Shown in pieces: positions 27,042 through 40,947 of a DNA stretch of 64,000 bases; position 1 is the first letter of the stretch; each line of letters begins with the position of its first letter. Under the pieces are notes generated by a model. It was not told the origin of the DNA, made no database searches, and saw only the letters and a list, made by a program, of their open reading frames with translations. The DNA is from Lactobacillus sp. CBA3605 (GTDB lineage: Bacteria > Bacillota > Bacilli > Lactobacillales > Lactobacillaceae): the NCBI RefSeq assembly GCF_002970915.1, contig NZ_CP027190.1, positions 1,302,001 to 1,366,000 on the forward strand, written 5' to 3'. The translations under genes and the position numbers were made by a program.

Positions 27042-29345
27042 TTAGGCCTGTACGGTCGTTTTAGCTTCTACTGCGGTAATGTAATCTAAGAAATTCCCGA
27101 AACATTGCTTCAAGAAATGCTCACTACCATCGTCATCTAAATGGTCATTTTCATCAAATTTGCTACCCGCTTGCGGTAACATGAATTCATTACCCGGCAT
27201 TACTTTAGCATCCACCCCAGGTGAATCCAGAATCTGCCGTAAGTTCATTTGAGCGCGAACGGTTCCTTGAATCCCTAAGGATGTCCCCACAATCATAACT
27301 GGCTTATCCTTAAACGGATGTTCCGCACACGATAACCATTCAATCGCACTCTTCAAAGCGGCTGGAATGGAATGATCATACTCCGGTACCGCAATGACGA
27401 CGCCATCAGCGGCGTCAATTTTAGCCGCTAGCGCTTTGACAGTCTCAGGTTCATTATCCAGATCATCTTCGTTAAACAACGGCAGGTCCTTAATCTCACA
27501 AATATCTAAGCTAGCTTGTGCATCGATTAAGTCCTTCATCGCATACAAAAGTTTTCGATTATATGATTTTGAGGCGTTGGTGCCGACAATTGCGACAATA
27601 TTAGCCTCATCGTCACCGGCTTTTTGTTGCGCTTTAGCATTCTCACTCGCCGCAGCACCCGCAACGTAACCGGAGGCAATTCCCCAAGTGTTCATCATGC
27701 TTGGCATTGAATCGTGACCATTGGCACCCCCGATAACTTCACCAGCACCAAAGTAATTCGCCACTAAAGCATTCTTACTCGTCAATAATTGTAAGCTCTT
27801 AGAATCCGTGGTGTAACCACCTAGCGTGGTCGCAAACCGGTCACGCTGTTCGATGAGATAATAAGTATCGCCTTCATATTGATGTAAATATTTCGGATCA
27901 CGACCAAATTCACGATCATGGCCAGCTTTAACGTAACCCTGATAGTCAGTAACGGTCTGTGCGAGCCGATCGGCATTTACCCCAGCCGCTTTAGCAACCG
28001 TCTTTAAGTCACCCTTGACGAAAACTGGTCGCTTAGTTGAATCCGCAAAGAACCCTTTGATTTCTTGGGGCGTGAAGTCATGTAAAATCAAGAGATCATA
28101 AACTTGTTTCCAAGTTCGTTCATCCATTAATAAGTAAGCTGTTTTGTCCGCTTGCTTTAAAATGGCATTCCGAAAGGCAGTGTATACGTTAGATTCATTA
28201 ACAATTCGTTCACCCTTAGTATTCACATAGATGGCACCCATGTCCGTAGCTTGTTTTGAGGCATAGGTTGTTAACTTAGCAACCCCTGGTTCTACTTCAA
28301 CCCCATGTGGATAGATCTTGTACCAATCTAAATCATGAGTTTGTAAATCTAAGTCTGCATTAAATTCATAGGCATCACCTGTGGACGTCATCGGGCCGTA
28401 ATAATCAATTCCTTGGCTTTCGGCGCCACGCATTTTTTGATTAGCCCCGTGACCACCAGTAGCTAAGACAACTGAGCGCGCTTTAATCTTAATCAATTGA
28501 CCATGTCGTTTGCCTACTAAGCCATTCAATTGGCCTTGGCGGTTAAAGGTTAACGATTGAACGGGGGTATCTAATAAGATTTCGCCACCCGCTGCCGTAA
28601 AGGCCTGTGATACTTTTTGAATCAATTCATAACTGCTAGCTGAAGGTAGTTCGATTTGCCGATTGATAGAATGTTCAGGCGTTTGCGTTTGGGCTTTTTG
28701 GTAATGTAAGTCCGCAAAATCACTGATAAAATCAATCGCTGGTCCAATATGATCAACCATTAACTTGGTTAAGGCGGGATAGTTGGTCTCTAAACTTTCA
28801 CGGGCAACATCTTGCGCTAACATCTCAGGAGTATCGTGATTGTTATCGAAAATTTGAGCGGATACCTTAGATCCCGTCCCAACGACATTGGAACCATTTA
28901 GAATCGTTGCACCACCAAGATAACCATTCTTTTCAACTAAAATGACTTTTTGACCCAGGGTTAAGGCCCGACAACCCGCAACCAAACCAGCTTCACCGCC
29001 ACCAATGATGACAACATCCGTACGACGATGTTGCGTCGTCATGGCCTTTTTTGATTTGGGTACTGGCGTTAACGTAATCCCTTCATCAGCGACCGCTTTT
29101 TTGGCAGACGTTAATAACGCTTGCGTCATTACAGTGGCACCACTAATCGTATCGACATTGAATGACTGTTCATCAATAATATTTTGTTTTAATTTATCAA
29201 TGACTTGATTAAAAATTCCGGACGTTTCAGAATGTTTCAAGATTTTCAAATCTTCTACTTTATCATCTTGAACGTCAACCTCATAACTAATAATGCCATT
29301 ATGGCCCATGGCTTGGCCTTTAATTTGTTGTTCTGCTTTACTCAA
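27042..29345 (-). CDS. Flavinylated FAD-dependent enoate reductase with fused NAD(P)H:FMN reductase domain
   Basis: 767-residue three-domain flavoprotein with no signal peptide. Residues 5-90 are an FMN_bind domain with the ApbE target motif DTISGAT, Thr71 being the expected FMN-phosphoester site. About 108-590 is a fumarate reductase-like FAD domain (VVIIGGGEAGLVAG). About 605-767 is a flavodoxin-like NADPH-FMN reductase domain (VPEYDHSIPAALKSAIEWLS). NAD(P)H would reduce the C-terminal flavin, then covalent FMN, then FAD. The fumarate-reductase Arg is replaced (Tyr388) and the HxANRLGG Arg region reads NGHDSMPS, so fumarate is unlikely. The operon suggests shikimate, a cyclic enoate, as acceptor; this is inference. 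The start is TTG at 29345, overlapping apbE by 8 bases. Confidence 0.85.
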   Translation of the reverse strand: MSKAEQQIKGQAMGHNGIISYEVDVQDDKVEDLKILKHSETSGIFNQVIDKLKQNIIDEQSFNVDTISGATVMTQALLTSAKKAVADEGITLTPVPKSKKAMTTQHRRTDVVIIGGGEAGLVAGCRALTLGQKVILVEKNGYLGGATILNGSNVVGTGSKVSAQIFDNNHDTPEMLAQDVARESLETNYPALTKLMVDHIGPAIDFISDFADLHYQKAQTQTPEHSINRQIELPSASSYELIQKVSQAFTAAGGEILLDTPVQSLTFNRQGQLNGLVGKRHGQLIKIKARSVVLATGGHGANQKMRGAESQGIDYYGPMTSTGDAYEFNADLDLQTHDLDWYKIYPHGVEVEPGVAKLTTYASKQATDMGAIYVNTKGERIVNESNVYTAFRNAILKQADKTAYLLMDERTWKQVYDLLILHDFTPQEIKGFFADSTKRPVFVKGDLKTVAKAAGVNADRLAQTVTDYQGYVKAGHDREFGRDPKYLHQYEGDTYYLIEQRDRFATTLGGYTTDSKSLQLLTSKNALVANYFGAGEVIGGANGHDSMPSMMNTWGIASGYVAGAAASENAKAQQKAGDDEANIVAIVGTNASKSYNRKLLYAMKDLIDAQASLDICEIKDLPLFNEDDLDNEPETVKALAAKIDAADGVVIAVPEYDHSIPAALKSAIEWLSCAEHPFKDKPVMIVGTSLGIQGTVRAQMNLRQILDSPGVDAKVMPGNEFMLPQAGSKFDENDHLDDDGSEHFLKQCFGNFLDYITAVEAKTTVQA

Positions 29346-30303
29346 TTGAATACACTCCCTTACGTCGCGGCTTCAAGCCACTCGTGACGCTAACTTGTTG
29401 TTGACGATCGATAAAAATTGCTTCGACTCCTGGTAATTGCTCGATGGTCGCCATACCAACTTGACTACCTTGAAAATAACAAACAGTTGCTAAAACTTCA
29501 GCTAACTCTGACTGTGCGGTAATAATACTGACTTGAGCCAGTTTATTTTCAACTGGGTAGCCCGTCTGTGGATCTAAAATATGATGGTACACATGCTGAC
29601 CAACTTTAAAATACCGTTCAAAAATTCCAGATGTGACTACCGTTCTAGCCGGCATTTGAACTTGTAGTAATGGTTGTCCGCGTGACGCCGTTGGGTTCTG
29701 AATACCAATCTCCCAGCGCTGGTCCGCAGTAAACGGCTGCGAACCCAATAACTTCACGTTACCACCTAAGTTAACGATTGCCTGCGTGACCCCCGCTTGC
29801 TGTAATTGCAACACAATTTGATCCGCAAAGTAGCCTTTAGCAATGGCGCCTAAGTCTAACACCATGCCTGGTTGTTGCAAATAAACAGTCTGTCGAACAG
29901 AATCTAACTTAACTTGATTAGGATCCATCAAGGCTAGGCACGCCTGAATACGCGTTGAACTAGGCACTTGCTGCCCGCCAAATCCAATCCGCCATAACTT
30001 GACTAACGGTCCAATCAACACGTTAAAACTAGCCGGATATTGGCGTGTATAGGCTAGTGCCGCCTCAATTAATTGAAACCCCGGAGCACTGATTGCAACC
30101 GGCTGCTGACCGGCTTGTCGATTAATTGCACTTAATTCCGAATCTGGCCGATTCATCGAAAAGACTTGGTCCATCCGTTGCAAATAGTCATAAACAGCTT
30201 CAACAACCGGTTGATTCCGTTCAAATAACGTAATTGAGATAACCGTGCCCATTAACGTAAACTGGGAAACGTATTTTTTATGTGCCTGATGCGATTCCGT
30301 CAA
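29338..30303 (-). CDS. apbE: FAD:protein FMN transferase (ApbE family)
   Basis: 321-residue ApbE that attaches FMN to a Thr of a partner flavoprotein using FAD. Motifs are FTLMGTVISI at the N-terminus, LDLGAIAKGYFAD, NLGGNVKLLG, and the late HHILDPQTGYP metal/FAD site. It lacks the lipoprotein signal of exported ApbEs, so it should act in the cytosol. It precedes and overlaps by 8 bases the gene for a flavoprotein carrying the target motif DxxSGAT, which is the obvious substrate. The start is a TTG at 30303, 9 nt after GGAG; a nearby GTG is out of frame. It follows aroD by 21 nt. Confidence 0.9.
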   Translation of the reverse strand: MTESHQAHKKYVSQFTLMGTVISITLFERNQPVVEAVYDYLQRMDQVFSMNRPDSELSAINRQAGQQPVAISAPGFQLIEAALAYTRQYPASFNVLIGPLVKLWRIGFGGQQVPSSTRIQACLALMDPNQVKLDSVRQTVYLQQPGMVLDLGAIAKGYFADQIVLQLQQAGVTQAIVNLGGNVKLLGSQPFTADQRWEIGIQNPTASRGQPLLQVQMPARTVVTSGIFERYFKVGQHVYHHILDPQTGYPVENKLAQVSIITAQSELAEVLATVCYFQGSQVGMATIEQLPGVEAIFIDRQQQVSVTSGLKPRRKGVYSIE

Positions 30304-30324
30304 TGGTCACAGCTCCTTTTTTAT

Positions 30325-31083
30325 TTAGCTTAACTTCAAATCTGTTAACGTTGGCCGTAACCGGTCCAAGGCAATCTGCCCAGGAGCTGAGGCGGCACCA
30401 ACTGTCGCAAAGGATAAACAAGAACCAAAGACTTCTCCCGCTAGGCGTGATACTTTACCAAGATCACCCATGGACATGGTAATCACTGGTTGAGTCAGAC
30501 TTTGATGCGCTTCGTTAGTCGCTGCTAGTAAGGTTAACACATCATTTGATGTTTGTGGCATGACCGCCATCTTCGCAATGTCTGCGCCAAAAGCCACCAT
30601 ACTGGTCAGCCGTTCCACAATATCAGCTTGCGCTGGCGTCTTGTCAAAATCGTGATTACTCATAATAACGACAACCTTTTGCGCATGTGCTTGGTCAACT
30701 AATTGTTTCACATCAGCTTCATCATGATACCGTTCAATATCTAGCGCATCCGTAAAATGACCCGCTAATACCGTCGCATTAACTTTGAAGTAAGCGACAT
30801 CGCTTAACGCCAATTCGCCACCTTCGCCTTGCGTTCTAAACGTGGTTAACAGGGCTAAATCGCCTAACGCCTGACGTAACTGTTGACCCATTTGTGTTAA
30901 TTGGTCTGGTTGCGTAACACCTTCATAAAAATCAATGCGCCATTCAACTAAATCTGGCTGGGCCGCTTTAATCGCTGGCACGGCCGCAAGAATTTCAGCC
31001 GTGGTTTTACCCGTAATTGGGACCGCAATTTTAGGCCGGCCAGCACCTAAGGTTAAGTGCCGTAATTTAACGATTTTTTGCAT
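30325..31083 (-). CDS. aroD: Type I 3-dehydroquinate dehydratase
   Basis: 252-residue class I dehydroquinase. It interconverts 3-dehydroquinate and 3-dehydroshikimate through a Schiff base. Family features are the early EWRIDFYEG, the catalytic His in MSNHDFDKTP and the Schiff-base Lys in IAKMAVMPQTSND. The ATG at 31083 lies 17 bases inside the end of the upstream MFS gene, with AAAGGAG 12 nt before it, a slightly long spacing. No other shikimate-synthesis gene such as aroA, aroB or aroC is near, and the neighbours are a transporter, a YdiB-like dehydrogenase and a reductase. The role is therefore likely catabolic or respiratory use of quinate rather than aromatic amino acid synthesis. Confidence 0.93.
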   Translation of the reverse strand: MQKIVKLRHLTLGAGRPKIAVPITGKTTAEILAAVPAIKAAQPDLVEWRIDFYEGVTQPDQLTQMGQQLRQALGDLALLTTFRTQGEGGELALSDVAYFKVNATVLAGHFTDALDIERYHDEADVKQLVDQAHAQKVVVIMSNHDFDKTPAQADIVERLTSMVAFGADIAKMAVMPQTSNDVLTLLAATNEAHQSLTQPVITMSMGDLGKVSRLAGEVFGSCLSFATVGAASAPGQIALDRLRPTLTDLKLS

Positions 31084-32299
31084 GATTGAGACTGGCTCCT
31101 TTCTGAGTGGGTTTGCCAAATAAATGATAATAACGAATCGTTATTAAGACCGCTAAGATAAAACCAATCAGCGCAATAATAACATCAAACAAAAAGATAT
31201 TAGCTAAACTATCAGCCATCATTCCAGTAACTAGCGGAATTGTAAAGGAAGCAATTGAACCAGCCGTATAAAAGGCTCCGGTAATTGTTCCCTTACCTTG
31301 TGGGAAGAAGGTCGACATAACCGTTAATCCTAATTGCATGACCCCACCGGCAGCTGAGAAACCAATGACAAATGACATAATTGAACACATCATCGCCGTT
31401 GGGAATAAGTACATCAATAAAAGGGATAAAAATGACATTAACGTATAAATACCTAAAAATTGAATTTCTTTCACGGCGCGTTTGGCCAAAGCCGCGGTTA
31501 CTAAGACACACACAATTGAGCCGATACTATAGTAACTAATTAATGCCCGTGACCCAGTGTCACCCATGCCAGCAACATGCGTCCCATACTGACTTAACCA
31601 TTGGCTAACAAGATAAAAAGTGGCTTGTGAGACATAACCATAGAGGATAAACAAGGTGCCATCAAACCATAAACTACCTTTAGGTTTAGCAGCTGTTTCA
31701 GCTTTAGTGGCAGTAGTCGTCGCGGTACTAGCCTGATTGGCAACTGGAAATTTTCCAGAAACTAATAAGAAAATCAAGTTAATGACTAAGACAACGATAC
31801 ACAGAATAAATGACCAACCATACCAATACTTACCAGCAACTAAAAAGCTAACCAATAAGGGTAATCCAAATTGTCCAACTGAGATGAATGCTTTAATAAT
31901 GACATTTGCGGTTCCTTTAGCATTCGGAAACATCTCCATTAAAGCGGGATAAGTCCCAGAATCTAAGAACGAGTTAGCGATCCCTGCTAGAATCCCAAAA
32001 ATATATGCGATTGAGATTGACGGACTCATTAAGATCCCCACAAAGAACAGCAAATAGGTAATGACCCCTAAAACAACGAATGGCTTACGACCAAATTTAT
32101 CTGATAAAAATCCTGAAACCAATAAGACAATTAAGCGACCAATTCCTAATGAAGAAATGACGACCGCGACACCGCCCGTATTGGTATGCCACTGTCCAGC
32201 CAATGAATCCATGTTTTGGGCTAAAATAATGACCCCAATCCCATGAATAAAGTAGTTTAGGTATAGGCTAATTGCGGTTGGCATATACTTATTTTTCAT
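31067..32299 (-). CDS. MFS transporter, probable quinate/shikimate permease
   Basis: 410-residue major facilitator protein with 12 predicted membrane segments. The loop 2-3 motif DKFGRKPF is visible near residue 65, and a hydrophilic loop rich in Ala/Thr lies mid-protein. It sits between the YdiB-like dehydrogenase gene and aroD; I recall that E. coli has the similar neighbourhood ydiM-ydiN (MFS)-ydiB-aroD. Import of quinate or shikimate is the natural role by context. The ATG at 32299 follows AGGAGG. The 3' end overlaps aroD by 17 bases. A close paralogue lies at 34329. Confidence 0.87.
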   Translation of the reverse strand: MKNKYMPTAISLYLNYFIHGIGVIILAQNMDSLAGQWHTNTGGVAVVISSLGIGRLIVLLVSGFLSDKFGRKPFVVLGVITYLLFFVGILMSPSISIAYIFGILAGIANSFLDSGTYPALMEMFPNAKGTANVIIKAFISVGQFGLPLLVSFLVAGKYWYGWSFILCIVVLVINLIFLLVSGKFPVANQASTATTTATKAETAAKPKGSLWFDGTLFILYGYVSQATFYLVSQWLSQYGTHVAGMGDTGSRALISYYSIGSIVCVLVTAALAKRAVKEIQFLGIYTLMSFLSLLLMYLFPTAMMCSIMSFVIGFSAAGGVMQLGLTVMSTFFPQGKGTITGAFYTAGSIASFTIPLVTGMMADSLANIFLFDVIIALIGFILAVLITIRYYHLFGKPTQKGASLNHAKNR

Positions 32300-32321
32300 A
32301 ATATCCTCCTAAGCGCAACTT

Positions 32322-33212
32322 TTACTTATGGTCAACAGCATCTTCATCAAATAAAATATGGCGAATATAATCAACTGGCATTTCTTTACCCGTCCATAAT
32401 TTAAAGGCTGCGGCGCCTTGTTCAAGCATCATACCTAAACCGTTAAAGACATGTTCAACCCCAGCTGCTTGGGCAACTTTCATGAGTTTAGTTGTCCGTG
32501 GCGCATAAACTGTATCAAAGACAATCAAGTCCTTACGCAACCAACTTGGATCATCAATTAGTGTCTTATCTTCCAAAGGCTTCATCCCAACCCCAGTTGA
32601 ATCGGTATAAATATCAGAACTTTGAATTTCTTGTTTGAAATCAGCCCGATTTTCAAGTTCATGTAAGGTTGCTTTGCAATCGGTCCGTTCATTAATTAAC
32701 TTAACATTACGTTCTGCATTTTCCCAAGAAGCATCATGCATATTAAAGATCGACATTTCTTTAACACCATCTAAAGCTGCTTGAACAGCAATTGCGGTAC
32801 CAGCACCACCGGCCCCAGCTAAAGTCATCTTTTGACCACGAATATCAATACCTTCATCTGCCAAAGACTTCATAAAACCAATGCCATCAGTTGTATATCC
32901 AGTTAACACGCCATTATCATTGACAACTGTATTAACTGCCCCAACCATTTCAGCGGCAGGATCTAATTTATCTAACAATGGAATAACTTTTTGTTTATTA
33001 GGCATTGAAATATTAGACCCACGCATATCTAAAGTTCTAATTGATTGAATCGCACTTGGTAACGTCTCATTTGTCACTTCAAATGCTAAGTAAGCATAAT
33101 TCAAGCCTAGTTTAGCAAAAGCATTGTTATGCATCGTTGGTGACATTGAATGTCTAATTGGATAAGCCATCAAGCCGATTAATAATGTATGTCCGTCAAT
33201 TCGTTCTGTCAT
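32322..33212 (-). CDS. Quinate/shikimate dehydrogenase (YdiB/AroE family)
   Basis: 296-residue NAD(P)-dependent dehydrogenase. Substrate residues are Ser22/Ser24 (RHSMSP), catalytic Lys73 (SMPNKQ) and Asp109 (YTTDG). The dinucleotide loop is GAGGAGTAI. The protein ends with GMMLEQGAAAFKLWTGKEMP. The phrases LIGLMAYPIRHS, SMPNKQ and GVGMKPLE match, from memory, E. coli YdiB, which acts on both quinate and shikimate, better than biosynthetic AroE. The expected reactions are quinate to 3-dehydroquinate and 3-dehydroshikimate to shikimate. It is the first gene of a five-gene operon divergent from a LysR regulator, and has AGGAG 8 nt before the ATG. Confidence 0.92.
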   Translation of the reverse strand: MTERIDGHTLLIGLMAYPIRHSMSPTMHNNAFAKLGLNYAYLAFEVTNETLPSAIQSIRTLDMRGSNISMPNKQKVIPLLDKLDPAAEMVGAVNTVVNDNGVLTGYTTDGIGFMKSLADEGIDIRGQKMTLAGAGGAGTAIAVQAALDGVKEMSIFNMHDASWENAERNVKLINERTDCKATLHELENRADFKQEIQSSDIYTDSTGVGMKPLEDKTLIDDPSWLRKDLIVFDTVYAPRTTKLMKVAQAAGVEHVFNGLGMMLEQGAAAFKLWTGKEMPVDYIRHILFDEDAVDHK

Positions 33213-33353
33213 AATAATTCACTCCTAAATATAATTTATAATATTTTGTTACTCAATTCACTTGTCATCTTAGCAGATTGATCTATTATATTAAATAGGG
33301 CTACATTAATAAATCAATAGAAATAATCTATGATTGAAAGGGGTACCATTTTC
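33213..33353. promoter_or_regulatory. Divergent LysR-controlled promoter region
   Basis: A 141-base AT-rich gap between the quinate operon and the LysR gene. It contains the dyad CTATTATATTAAATAG (33283-33298) and several ATTGAT/ATCAAT half sites in opposite orientation (about 33277 to 33345). These are typical of LysR binding regions, though no single T-N11-A box stands out. Confidence 0.45.
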
Positions 33354-34283
33354 ATGAATTTACGTCACTTAATTTTTTTCAAAGAATTAGCACGAACACA
33401 ACATATGTCGCAAGCGGCTGACAGCCTTGGTATCTCGCAACCCTCGCTAAGCTATGCCATTAAAAAGTTAGAAAAAGAATTAGGCGTGCCACTTTTTGAA
33501 CCTGATGGTCGTAATATTAAGCTAACTCCGATTGGCGAGGTCTATCTAAAATACATCACTGCCAGCTTAAATGATTTATCACAAGGCAATGAATTGGTTC
33601 ACCAATTGATGAATCCAGACACTGGTCATGTTAATTTGGGCTTTACTTACACCCTAGGTCAACAACTCGTCCCAGAGCTACTCACTAACTTTCAAGCCGA
33701 TTCTCAAAATAAAGCCATTAACTTTGAACTTGGTCAAAATAACTCCAACGAATTATTACAAGACCTAGCCACTGAAAAATACGATTTAATTTTGGCTTCT
33801 AATATCGAAAAATTTGGTGAACAAGTCGCTGATAACCTATTTGATTTTATACCACTAGTGCAACAAGAAATTGTGGCTGCCATTCCTAGTCAGCATCCTT
33901 TAGCAATAAAAGAGACCTTACAGGTCGCCGATTTAGCTCCTTATCCAATGATTCTTTTCTCTAAGAATAGTGGGCTCCGACCCTTAATCGATCAAATCTT
34001 AGCACAGGCTAAAGTAACCCCTAAGGTTGCTTATGAAGTCGAAGAAGACCATACGATGGCTGGCTTTGTTCAACACAATTTAGGTGTCGCCTTGATGCCT
34101 TATTTACCATTGCTCAATCAAACCAATGTTCATTTAAAGCACCTTAAGGATCAGCCTTTACAACACCAAATATATTTAATTGTAAAACAAAATCACTTTA
34201 TCACGCCCTCTGTTCATCGTTTTCAAGAATTTATTCGTAGCTATTGCTGGCAACATTATACGAATCAAGATCGCTTAATTTAG
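33354..34283 (+). CDS. LysR-family regulator of the quinate/shikimate operon
   Basis: 309-residue LysR-type activator. The winged helix-turn-helix occupies the first 60 residues (MNLRHLIFFKELARTQHMSQ, then AADSLGISQPSLSYAIKKLE). A two-lobed effector domain follows (VNLGFTYTLGQQLVPELL and DLILAS are recognisable). The ATG at 33354 is preferred, preceded by GAAAGGGG; an ATG eight codons upstream lies before that ribosome site. It is divergent from the YdiB-like dehydrogenase gene, the usual layout for a LysR regulator and its target. The likely inducer is a pathway compound such as shikimate or quinate. Confidence 0.9.
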   Translation: MNLRHLIFFKELARTQHMSQAADSLGISQPSLSYAIKKLEKELGVPLFEPDGRNIKLTPIGEVYLKYITASLNDLSQGNELVHQLMNPDTGHVNLGFTYTLGQQLVPELLTNFQADSQNKAINFELGQNNSNELLQDLATEKYDLILASNIEKFGEQVADNLFDFIPLVQQEIVAAIPSQHPLAIKETLQVADLAPYPMILFSKNSGLRPLIDQILAQAKVTPKVAYEVEEDHTMAGFVQHNLGVALMPYLPLLNQTNVHLKHLKDQPLQHQIYLIVKQNHFITPSVHRFQEFIRSYCWQHYTNQDRLI

Positions 34284-34309: not shown

Positions 34310-34351
34310 AAACAGCTGCTACAAGAATTCAAATTCTTGTAGCGGCTGTTT
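34310..34351. terminator. Bidirectional terminator overlapping the MFS gene 3' end
   Basis: A 20-bp stem with one G-T pair (34310-34329 with 34332-34351) and a 2-nt loop. On the minus strand a T7 run follows. The last six MFS sense codons form one arm and its TGA stop spans the arm-loop junction. It carries the GCTNCAAGAATT core seen at 620 and 7920. Confidence 0.85.
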
Positions 34352-35531
34352 GGGGACGATATAAACTTAAAACGATGAGACTGCAGATAACCCCAACAAT
34401 CGCAATCCCAACATCAAACCACATAATATTTCGAATACTGACGCGCGAAATCCAAGCAGTAAACACTGGAATCGTAAATGAAGCTAACCCACTAGCCGTA
34501 TAGTAAATACCGGTAATGCGGCCCTTAGCCCGTGGGAAGACATCACTCATAATAGTTAGTCCCAATTGCATCACGCCACCAGCTGCTGAACAACCAATGA
34601 TAAACGAACAAATCAGGGCAACACTCATCGTTGGTACCAAAGTTAAAACAACTAGCGCCAATAGCGAGATTAAAGTATTAACTAGCATTAGCCACACAGC
34701 CTTAATTACTCGTTCAACTAAAATAGCAGTCACAATTACGCCAAGGATCGAGCCAATACTATAGATACTAACCAACATCCGCGCATGCACCAGATTAAGC
34801 TTAACCACTTCGCTACCATATTTAGTTAACCATTGACTCACCAAGTAAAAAGTCGCCATCGAGACATAGCCAAAAACAGTTAAAACAATCCCTAATATTA
34901 ACTGTCGTGGCTTTAGCCTGTTTGATTTTGGCACCACTTTTGTCACAGCCGTTTTAGTCGCAACTGTGGATAGTTCTGGGAATTGACGAGGACGTAAAAA
35001 AATAAAATTAACCACTAGCAAGCCAACGCATAGTAAAAATGACCATCCATACCATAAAGTTAAATGATCCAGCCCTGCCACAATGATTGGTAATAATAAC
35101 TCACCAATCGATGCAAACGCCTTGATCATTATATTGGCAGTCGCTTGTCGCTTCGGATATAGTTCCATTAATGCCGGATAAGTGCCCGAATCTAAAAAGG
35201 AATTTGCCATCCCCGCTAAAATGCCAAAACCATACGCCACTAGAATATTCTTCGATAGGATAATGCCAATAAAAAACAGCGTATACGTTAAAACACCAAT
35301 TTGCACAAAGAACTTGCGCCCAATGCGATCTGAAAAAGTGCCGGCAATATACAACACTAGCAAGCGGCCAATACCTAACGATGAAATAACCAATGAAACG
35401 CCGGCATCATCAACGTGCCACTGCTGCCCTAGAACAGTCATGTTCTGAGCTAAAATAACAATGGCCATCCCATGGACAAGATAGTTGAGGTATAAGCAAA
35501 TCGTCGTTCGAGTCCGTTCTATCTGAGTCAT
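34329..35531 (-). CDS. MFS transporter, paralogue of the quinate-operon permease
   Basis: 400-residue major facilitator protein with 12 membrane segments, closely similar along its whole length to the protein at 31067. Both share LYLNYxxHG, VVISSLGIGRL and GILAGMANSFLDSGTYPALME-type stretches. The loop 2-3 motif here is DRIGRKFF. It converges with the LysR gene and is separated from the operon by it, so it may move a related compound such as shikimate, dihydroshikimate or another cyclic acid, or act as exporter or antiporter. The ribosome site (AGGTGA) is weak. Its final codons lie within a terminator stem. Confidence 0.83.
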   Translation of the reverse strand: MTQIERTRTTICLYLNYLVHGMAIVILAQNMTVLGQQWHVDDAGVSLVISSLGIGRLLVLYIAGTFSDRIGRKFFVQIGVLTYTLFFIGIILSKNILVAYGFGILAGMANSFLDSGTYPALMELYPKRQATANIMIKAFASIGELLLPIIVAGLDHLTLWYGWSFLLCVGLLVVNFIFLRPRQFPELSTVATKTAVTKVVPKSNRLKPRQLILGIVLTVFGYVSMATFYLVSQWLTKYGSEVVKLNLVHARMLVSIYSIGSILGVIVTAILVERVIKAVWLMLVNTLISLLALVVLTLVPTMSVALICSFIIGCSAAGGVMQLGLTIMSDVFPRAKGRITGIYYTASGLASFTIPVFTAWISRVSIRNIMWFDVGIAIVGVICSLIVLSLYRPQTAATRI

Positions 35532-35733: not shown

Positions 35734-37239
<1,506 letters not shown>

Positions 37240-37319
37240 TTATGCTTTAGAACTAAATGTTAGCCCTTACATTCAGTATACGAACTTTGTAGTTGAATTT
37301 CAAACGATTTTGAAAGCGA

Positions 37320-38804
<1,485 letters not shown>

Positions 38805-38814
38805 TCATTAACGA

Positions 38815-40947
<2,133 letters not shown>

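Follow-up and report, generated by a model that had tools for sequence, protein, structure and literature searches.

Lactic acid bacteria have been reported to reduce quinate and shikimate since the 1950s, and a gene set in Lactobacillus sp. CBA3605 raises the question of which genes carry out this reaction and on which compound the reducing enzyme acts. The set lies in a stretch of 64,000 nucleotides (hereafter the window; G000:C1:1302001-1366000, contig NZ_CP027190.1) of a 2.55-Mb genome that is 100% complete by computed figure. We propose, at a probability of about 0.72, that it is a QuiR-type, shikimate-responsive set by which the cell takes up quinate and shikimate as electron sinks, with a flavinylated reductase (hereafter RED) reducing the C=C bond of the ring. 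An initial annotation had described a LysR gene divergent from genes for a shikimate dehydrogenase (SDH), a major facilitator superfamily (MFS) transporter, AroD, ApbE and a flavinylated reductase. This description held: all six genes are open at their coordinates and belong to the expected domain families (ApbE, DHquinase_I, MFS_1, Shikimate_dh_N and LysR). The features of the locus, including a second MFS gene beyond the range first described, are as follows.

27042..29345, minus strand: RED, flavinylated reductase of 767 aa, proposed ring C=C reductase (FMN_bind, FAD_binding_2 and FMN_red domains)
29338..30303, minus strand: ApbE flavin transferase, which would attach FMN to RED (PF02424, 267 bits)
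30325..31119, minus strand: AroD, type I 3-dehydroquinate dehydratase (PF01487; TIGR01093, 229 bits, cut-off 139)
31067..32299, minus strand: MFS transporter, proposed quinate/shikimate importer (PF07690; substrate from context only)
32322..33212, minus strand: SDH, shikimate (possibly quinate) dehydrogenase (Shikimate_dh_N; NCBIfam NF001313)
33317..33331, plus strand: operator-like palindrome ATAGA-N5-TCTAT (exact pattern match in the window)
33330..34283, plus strand: LysR regulator of QuiR type (best solved relative 5TED/Lmo0488)
34329..35531, minus strand: second MFS paralogue, adjoining the regulator (open frame and domain match)

The minus-strand genes are spaced by 21-22 bp or overlap, which fits a single operon. 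The reactions, transport, electron donor and physiological role that we infer for it run as follows. The MFS proteins would import quinate and shikimate, SDH would oxidise quinate to 3-dehydroquinate and interconvert shikimate and 3-dehydroshikimate, and AroD would dehydrate 3-dehydroquinate to 3-dehydroshikimate. ApbE would flavinylate RED, whose FMN_red domain would feed in electrons from NAD(P)H, and RED would then reduce C1=C2 of the ring. Along a route through 3-dehydroshikimate, RED would act first and SDH would subsequently reduce the ketone; either order would end at dihydroshikimate and consume, on balance, one NAD(P)H for each quinate or shikimate.

To ask how constant this association is, we searched for RED in an even draw of 397 genomes of the family (E<=1e-150, query P0065) and found it in 52. 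For all 52 we then took about 9 kb to either side, or less where the contig ended sooner, and searched these neighbourhoods with the window's proteins at a least identity of 40% for SDH, AroD and LysR and 30% for MFS and ApbE. SDH was present in 49, AroD in 48, both in 47, LysR in 42, MFS in 41 and ApbE in 30, and the linkage of SDH and AroD to RED exceeds chance. Five loci lack one or both of the two: in L106 they lie on another contig (L168), L111 is a short contig with neither, L112 has SDH only (with a piece of AroD at the edge of the longer L051), L115 has AroD only, and L131 has no AroD, its two SDH proteins being of a second type (46-47%). Two MFS matches, one at >=74% identity and one at 47-53%, occur in 18 of the 52 loci; the window's MFS transporters reach no NCBIfam transporter model at cut-off. 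At its C-terminus RED is fused to FMN_red in 29 of the 52 genomes, consists of the core only in 22, and in one is fused to AroD. This last protein (825 aa, L096; 823 of its 825 residues agree with P0066) links RED with the 3-dehydroshikimate node, on the evidence of one species.

The regulator also supports a quinate/shikimate role. Its best solved relative is 5TED, Lmo0488 (143 bits, the next scoring 66 bits), and a table in PMC11205737 gives 5TED as QuiR with shikimate. Judged by sequence kinship, the window's LysR is of QuiR type and would respond to shikimate. We looked for its operator in divergent LysR-SDH intergenic records, 36 at first; eight were dropped, namely the window itself, L147 as a copy of it, and short records, so that 28 were kept. 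The pattern ATAGA-N5-TCTAT occurs exactly in nine of these regions, with one mismatch in eight, two in seven and three in four, while order-1 resampled controls gave exact matches in 0.1% and one mismatch in 1.7%; the 28 sequences are related and not independent. Within the window, allowing one mismatch, there were three matches against 2.0 expected, and 31 of 100 shuffles gave at least three, no excess over chance. The LysR start is probably 33354 and not 33330, because alignments with solved full-length LysR relatives begin at residue 9 and 33330 overlaps the palindrome ATAGAAATAATCTAT at 33317-33331. Two other starts also call for comment. The TTG start of RED is supported because the residues preceding MGHNG are shared with its relatives, and the TTG of the AroD reading frame (31119) overlaps the MFS gene, and an internal ATG near 31083, read by eye, is the likelier start.

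We also asked whether the genome could use SDH and AroD to make aromatic compounds. The window's SDH is the only PF08501 protein of the genome, and its closest solved relative is 3TNL (371 bits). Searches of this genome found no chorismate synthase (14 of 14 controls matched), no dehydroquinate (DHQ) synthase (11 of 14) and no shikimate kinase (12 of 14). The statement that no biosynthetic aro gene is present thus extends from the locus to the whole genome for these three enzymes, EPSP and DAHP synthases not having been searched for, and the gene set is not biosynthetic there. Across the family, 203 of the 397 genomes have chorismate synthase, and 19 of the 52 RED-bearing genomes are not among them. 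Away from the gene set (C1:871493-872155; L148:8473-9213) the genome encodes a second type I DHQ dehydratase, a diverged one, adjoining a flavodoxin-like and a transporter-like open reading frame (ORF).

SDH loci beyond the RED neighbourhoods were also examined. SDH is present in 114 of the 397 family genomes (E<=1e-85), and from these we chose 18 further loci by hand. Four of them (L156-L159) carry a 671-678 aa protein with Oxidored_FMN and Pyr_redox_2 domains, of the old yellow enzyme (OYE) type, beside LysR and SDH, with AroD in three of the four. Its fold is unrelated to that of RED, yet where RED is absent it sits, as RED does, with LysR, SDH and AroD. The best NCBIfam model for the L156 protein is BaiCD, an enone-reducing family, at 477 bits and below the cut-off of 825. 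In one more of the 18 loci, L154, RED is in two pieces. The same arrangement occurs in the wider order, where SDH is present in 90 of 395 genomes, 72 of them outside the family. Among 20 loci chosen from these 72, LysR, the OYE-type protein, SDH and AroD stand together in 14 (L172-L185), and four have RED-type proteins, one close (L171) and three at 28-30% identity (L186, L188 and L190). The partner of this gene set is thus one or the other of two unrelated ene-reductases. We take this as an argument that the set serves to reduce a C=C bond, and as a sign that the order uses two unrelated enzymes for a single step. The two can also occur together: the OYE-type protein, found in seven of the 397 family genomes, stands directly beside RED in two (G122 and G271; L106 and L112). 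It was not found in the CBA3605 genome at E<=1e-150. In L164-L166 we considered 679-aa ORFs close to SDH as further OYE-type proteins and rejected them, as they are something else (UvrB-like by eye). A 969-aa protein, L188:2448-5357, is similar to the RED core (253 bits) as well as to the OYE-type protein (166 bits) and is apparently a fusion of the two kinds of reductase.

Several observations weigh against our proposal. The SDH passes the NCBIfam shikimate dehydrogenase model (NF001313, 526.4 bits, cut-off 431) but does not reach the one set for quinate/shikimate dehydrogenases (NF009390, 328.1 bits against 349), so that the name 'YdiB-like' given to it initially is a loose one. Known substrates of RED's relatives are mostly open-chain acids. 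Of the 18 hand-chosen family loci, 13 show neither RED nor the OYE-type protein in the stretch, although three of the genomes concerned (L168, L169 and L170) have RED on another contig and six or more of the 13 look like SDH-AroD pairs with no QuiR-like neighbour. Two loci, L153 and L155 (G361 and G301), have LysR, SDH and AroD and neither reductase genome-wide at E<=1e-150, which counts against a strict rule, and the order loci L187 and L189 likewise carry neither a RED-type nor an OYE-type protein.

What kind of enzyme is RED? It comprises FMN_bind (residues 14-85), FAD_binding_2 (110-546) and FMN_red (582-726) domains; PF04205 scores 47.9 bits and PF00890 108.9 bits, both above cut-off, and FMN_red 126.6 bits. 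The flavinylation motif [S/T]GA[S/T] reads SGAT, with Gly69 and Ala70 in 52 of 52 REDs; residue 71 is Thr in 42 of these and Ser in the other 10. RED is predicted to carry covalent FMN and to be cytosolic, no signal peptide being seen by eye. These features are common to the flavinylated NAD(P)H reductases of the HcrB/Ard/Crd kind (HcrA/HcrB are treated in a passage of PMC13101492), which have FMN_bind with an SGAT-type motif, FAD_binding_2, an FMN_red input domain and an ApbE partner. RED has the NAD(P)H input domain of its own and the ApbE partner of the HcrB kind, although FMN_red is fused in only 29 of the 52 relatives. It differs from that kind in its gene partners, SDH and AroD, and in its active site.

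The initial annotation had RED work like fumarate reductase, and the active site speaks against this. We aligned RED to UrdA, flavocytochrome c3 and paralogues, taking the catalytic residues of flavocytochrome c3 to be Arg402, His504 and Arg544, and comparing His365, Glu378 and Arg381 as well. In RED the positions aligned with the Arg/His/Arg trio hold Tyr388, Thr506 and Ser546; Tyr345, Tyr361 and Lys364 align with the other three, Tyr361 and Lys364 in a gapped part. The replacements are constant, with Tyr388, Thr506, Tyr345, Tyr361 and Lys364 in 52 of 52 REDs and Ser546 in 50. Urocanate reductase and flavocytochrome c3 fumarate reductase share the FAD-domain superfamily with RED (6T85 178, 1QO8 170 and 1D4C 163 bits, profile A1), but RED differs from them in its catalytic residues, in its electron input and in having no urocanate or fumarate genes nearby. 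With the aligned trio replaced, RED would work as flavinylated NAD(P)H reductases do, but on mechanistic grounds it ought not to be classed among the fumarate-type enzymes. The name that its depositors gave to PDB 2LFC (fumarate reductase flavoprotein subunit) is probably wrong: this solved fragment of 160 residues, which matches RED 351-501 at 264 bits, comes from a close relative of RED and belongs to the RED clade.

Distant relatives bear on which residues matter. A protein search scored 7999 candidates and found 756 relatives among them at E<=0.001, with a listing of the best 120, and a scan of named genomes gave 86 RED loci, of which 80 were kept: 72 (L013-L084) from lactic acid bacteria, among them L. 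plantarum, bee-associated Lactobacillus species and L. salivarius, and eight (L085-L092) from other Firmicutes. The latter are 29-35% identical to RED, and no SDH or AroD was found alongside them in their neighbourhoods. Tyr388 as the catalytic acid is a weakened candidate, being Asn in L186, L188 and L190 and Phe in L085, L086, L087, L089 and L092. These distant reductases and RED have Glu224, Arg229, Tyr316, Lys343, Tyr345, Glu499, Gln500, Arg503, Phe504 and Thr506 in common. In L085-L092 the EQxxRF-T residues are shared with RED (five aligned), with Phe at 388. Core reductases also occur on plasmids, in 28 records at E<=1e-50, all from Ligilactobacillus (e.g. L. salivarius NC_007930.1:78754-80436); none reaches 80% query coverage, because FMN_red is absent there.

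The most serious alternative concerns the compound on which RED acts. Both candidates fit, 3-dehydroshikimate as an enone and enoate and shikimate as an enoate. The scheme first put forward for this locus took shikimate, a cyclic enoate, to be the very compound that RED reduces, in much the way that fumarate-type reductases act on acrylates, and we regard this as a live possibility that falls somewhat short of even odds. In its favour, the closest characterised folds reduce enoates, the ligand tabulated for QuiR in 5TED is shikimate, and SDH adjoins RED in many loci. Three points favour 3-dehydroshikimate instead: RED has other residues at the places aligned with the fumarate-reductase trio, the fused partner is AroD, which makes 3-dehydroshikimate, and the protein that replaces RED is closest, though under cut-off, to BaiCD and thus to an enone-reducing family. 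We lean slightly towards 3-dehydroshikimate as the direct substrate. The initial picture of a quinate/shikimate module is supported by the QuiR-type LysR, the linkage with SDH and AroD, the FMN_red-bearing reductase and the lack of the three biosynthetic enzymes, and is questioned as to shikimate being reduced directly and by a fumarate reductase-like mechanism.

A second alternative takes its cue from Listeria, where the QuiR-controlled qui genes (Lmo0488; SDH 3TNL/3TOZ; Lmo2234) serve protocatechuate formation. The window shares with them a QuiR-type regulator, an SDH near 3TNL and a type I AroD, and has a flavinylated fumarate reductase-like protein with ApbE in place of an OYE-type protein; the order genomes that combine LysR, SDH and AroD with the OYE-type protein may include Listeria. 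The locus could then be an ordinary qui pathway to protocatechuate, with RED unrelated or regulatory. The QuiR-like regulator would suit this, as would a TIM barrel protein (PF01261) in 10 of the 52 RED loci, whose best solved relative is Lmo2234 (301 bits; the NCBIfam QuiC match is weak, 28 bits), which we take to be QuiC2. However, the reductase is the constant partner and an unrelated ene-reductase substitutes for it elsewhere, and the CBA3605 genome gave no match to this TIM barrel, a weak negative with the L136 protein as single query and no positive control. We consider a protocatechuate pathway improbable here. A title referenced in PMC9324987 places QuiC2 of Listeria in the dehydroshikimate dehydratase class.

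It is quite improbable that RED reduces some other plant acid, such as a hydroxycinnamate released together with quinate from chlorogenate, and merely shares the operon. RED does belong to the superfamily of hydroxycinnamate and vinylphenol reductases, but the genome has separate proteins that we name HcrB-like (L149, 805 aa) and VprA-like (L152); the former keeps Arg, His and Arg at the aligned places and the latter the aligned Arg that RED has lost. The operon shows no decarboxylase or esterase, and the AroD fusion also points away from such a substrate. A misplaced aromatic biosynthesis operon, which the homology of SDH and AroD to biosynthetic enzymes and the presence of some family SDH genes no more than about 5 kb from chorismate synthase (G009 and G262, for example) might suggest, is contradicted for this genome by the three enzymes not found in it, fits poorly with the 19 RED-bearing genomes that lack chorismate synthase, and has next to no probability.

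The TIM barrel protein may instead mark an extended form of the gene set around RED. A short-chain dehydrogenase/reductase (SDR) accompanies RED in 15 of the 52 neighbourhoods; the CBA3605 genome gave no match to it at 1e-40, in a search with no positive control. Among the loci with a TIM barrel or SDR, L135, L136, L138 and L141 carry two further SDH proteins, in a second, well supported clade of 12 rows. This extended form might account for other end products that have been reported, 3,4-dihydroxycyclohexanecarboxylate being one and catechol, in a passage of PMC7464816, another. Tentatively, and at less than even odds, Lactobacillales may share an anaerobic hydroaromatic electron sink around 3-dehydroshikimate, in which RED or a BaiCD-like OYE would reduce the same ring C=C bond. 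Ligilactobacillus and the L. plantarum group would add a QuiC2-like TIM barrel and an SDR to this sink and so extend it, plausibly to dihydroxycyclohexanecarboxylate or catechol.

How does this compare with what is known of the phenotype? Quinate reduction has been described in Lactobacillus pastorianus, a name that resolves to Secundilactobacillus paracollinoides, a RED-bearing species. In strain DSM 15502 (L032) RED is open (770 aa), and LysR, one MFS gene and AroD are in pieces, through draft errors or decay. The old phenotype invoked at the outset is restated for this bacterial group in a passage of PMC13204703, in which quinic acid goes to shikimic and dihydroshikimic acid as a hydrogen acceptor. 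It also appears in an excerpt of PMC7427622, where shikimic acid itself is unchanged in the L. rhamnosus products, and an excerpt of PMC5726620 has quinate used by several bee gut members; passages of PMC12248444 and PMC11325843 were also considered. PMC8238504 makes no mention of shikimate, quinate or dehydroquin-, and PMC12052999 contains none of the six terms looked for in it. In the open-licence literature we found no paper that names a gene for reduction of the quinate or shikimate ring in lactobacilli.

Beyond the second MFS gene, two beta-glucosidase-like ORFs and a beta-glucoside phosphotransferase system-like ORF adjoin (window 35734-40947, by eye), and plant glycosides may be a source of related substrates. 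The gene set offers genes, a regulator, a candidate operator and a sharp substrate question, and it adds to the flavinylated reductases a clade with a changed active site. If our proposal is true, it would supply the genes for a decades-old food-fermentation reaction, of relevance to fermented fruit and vegetables.

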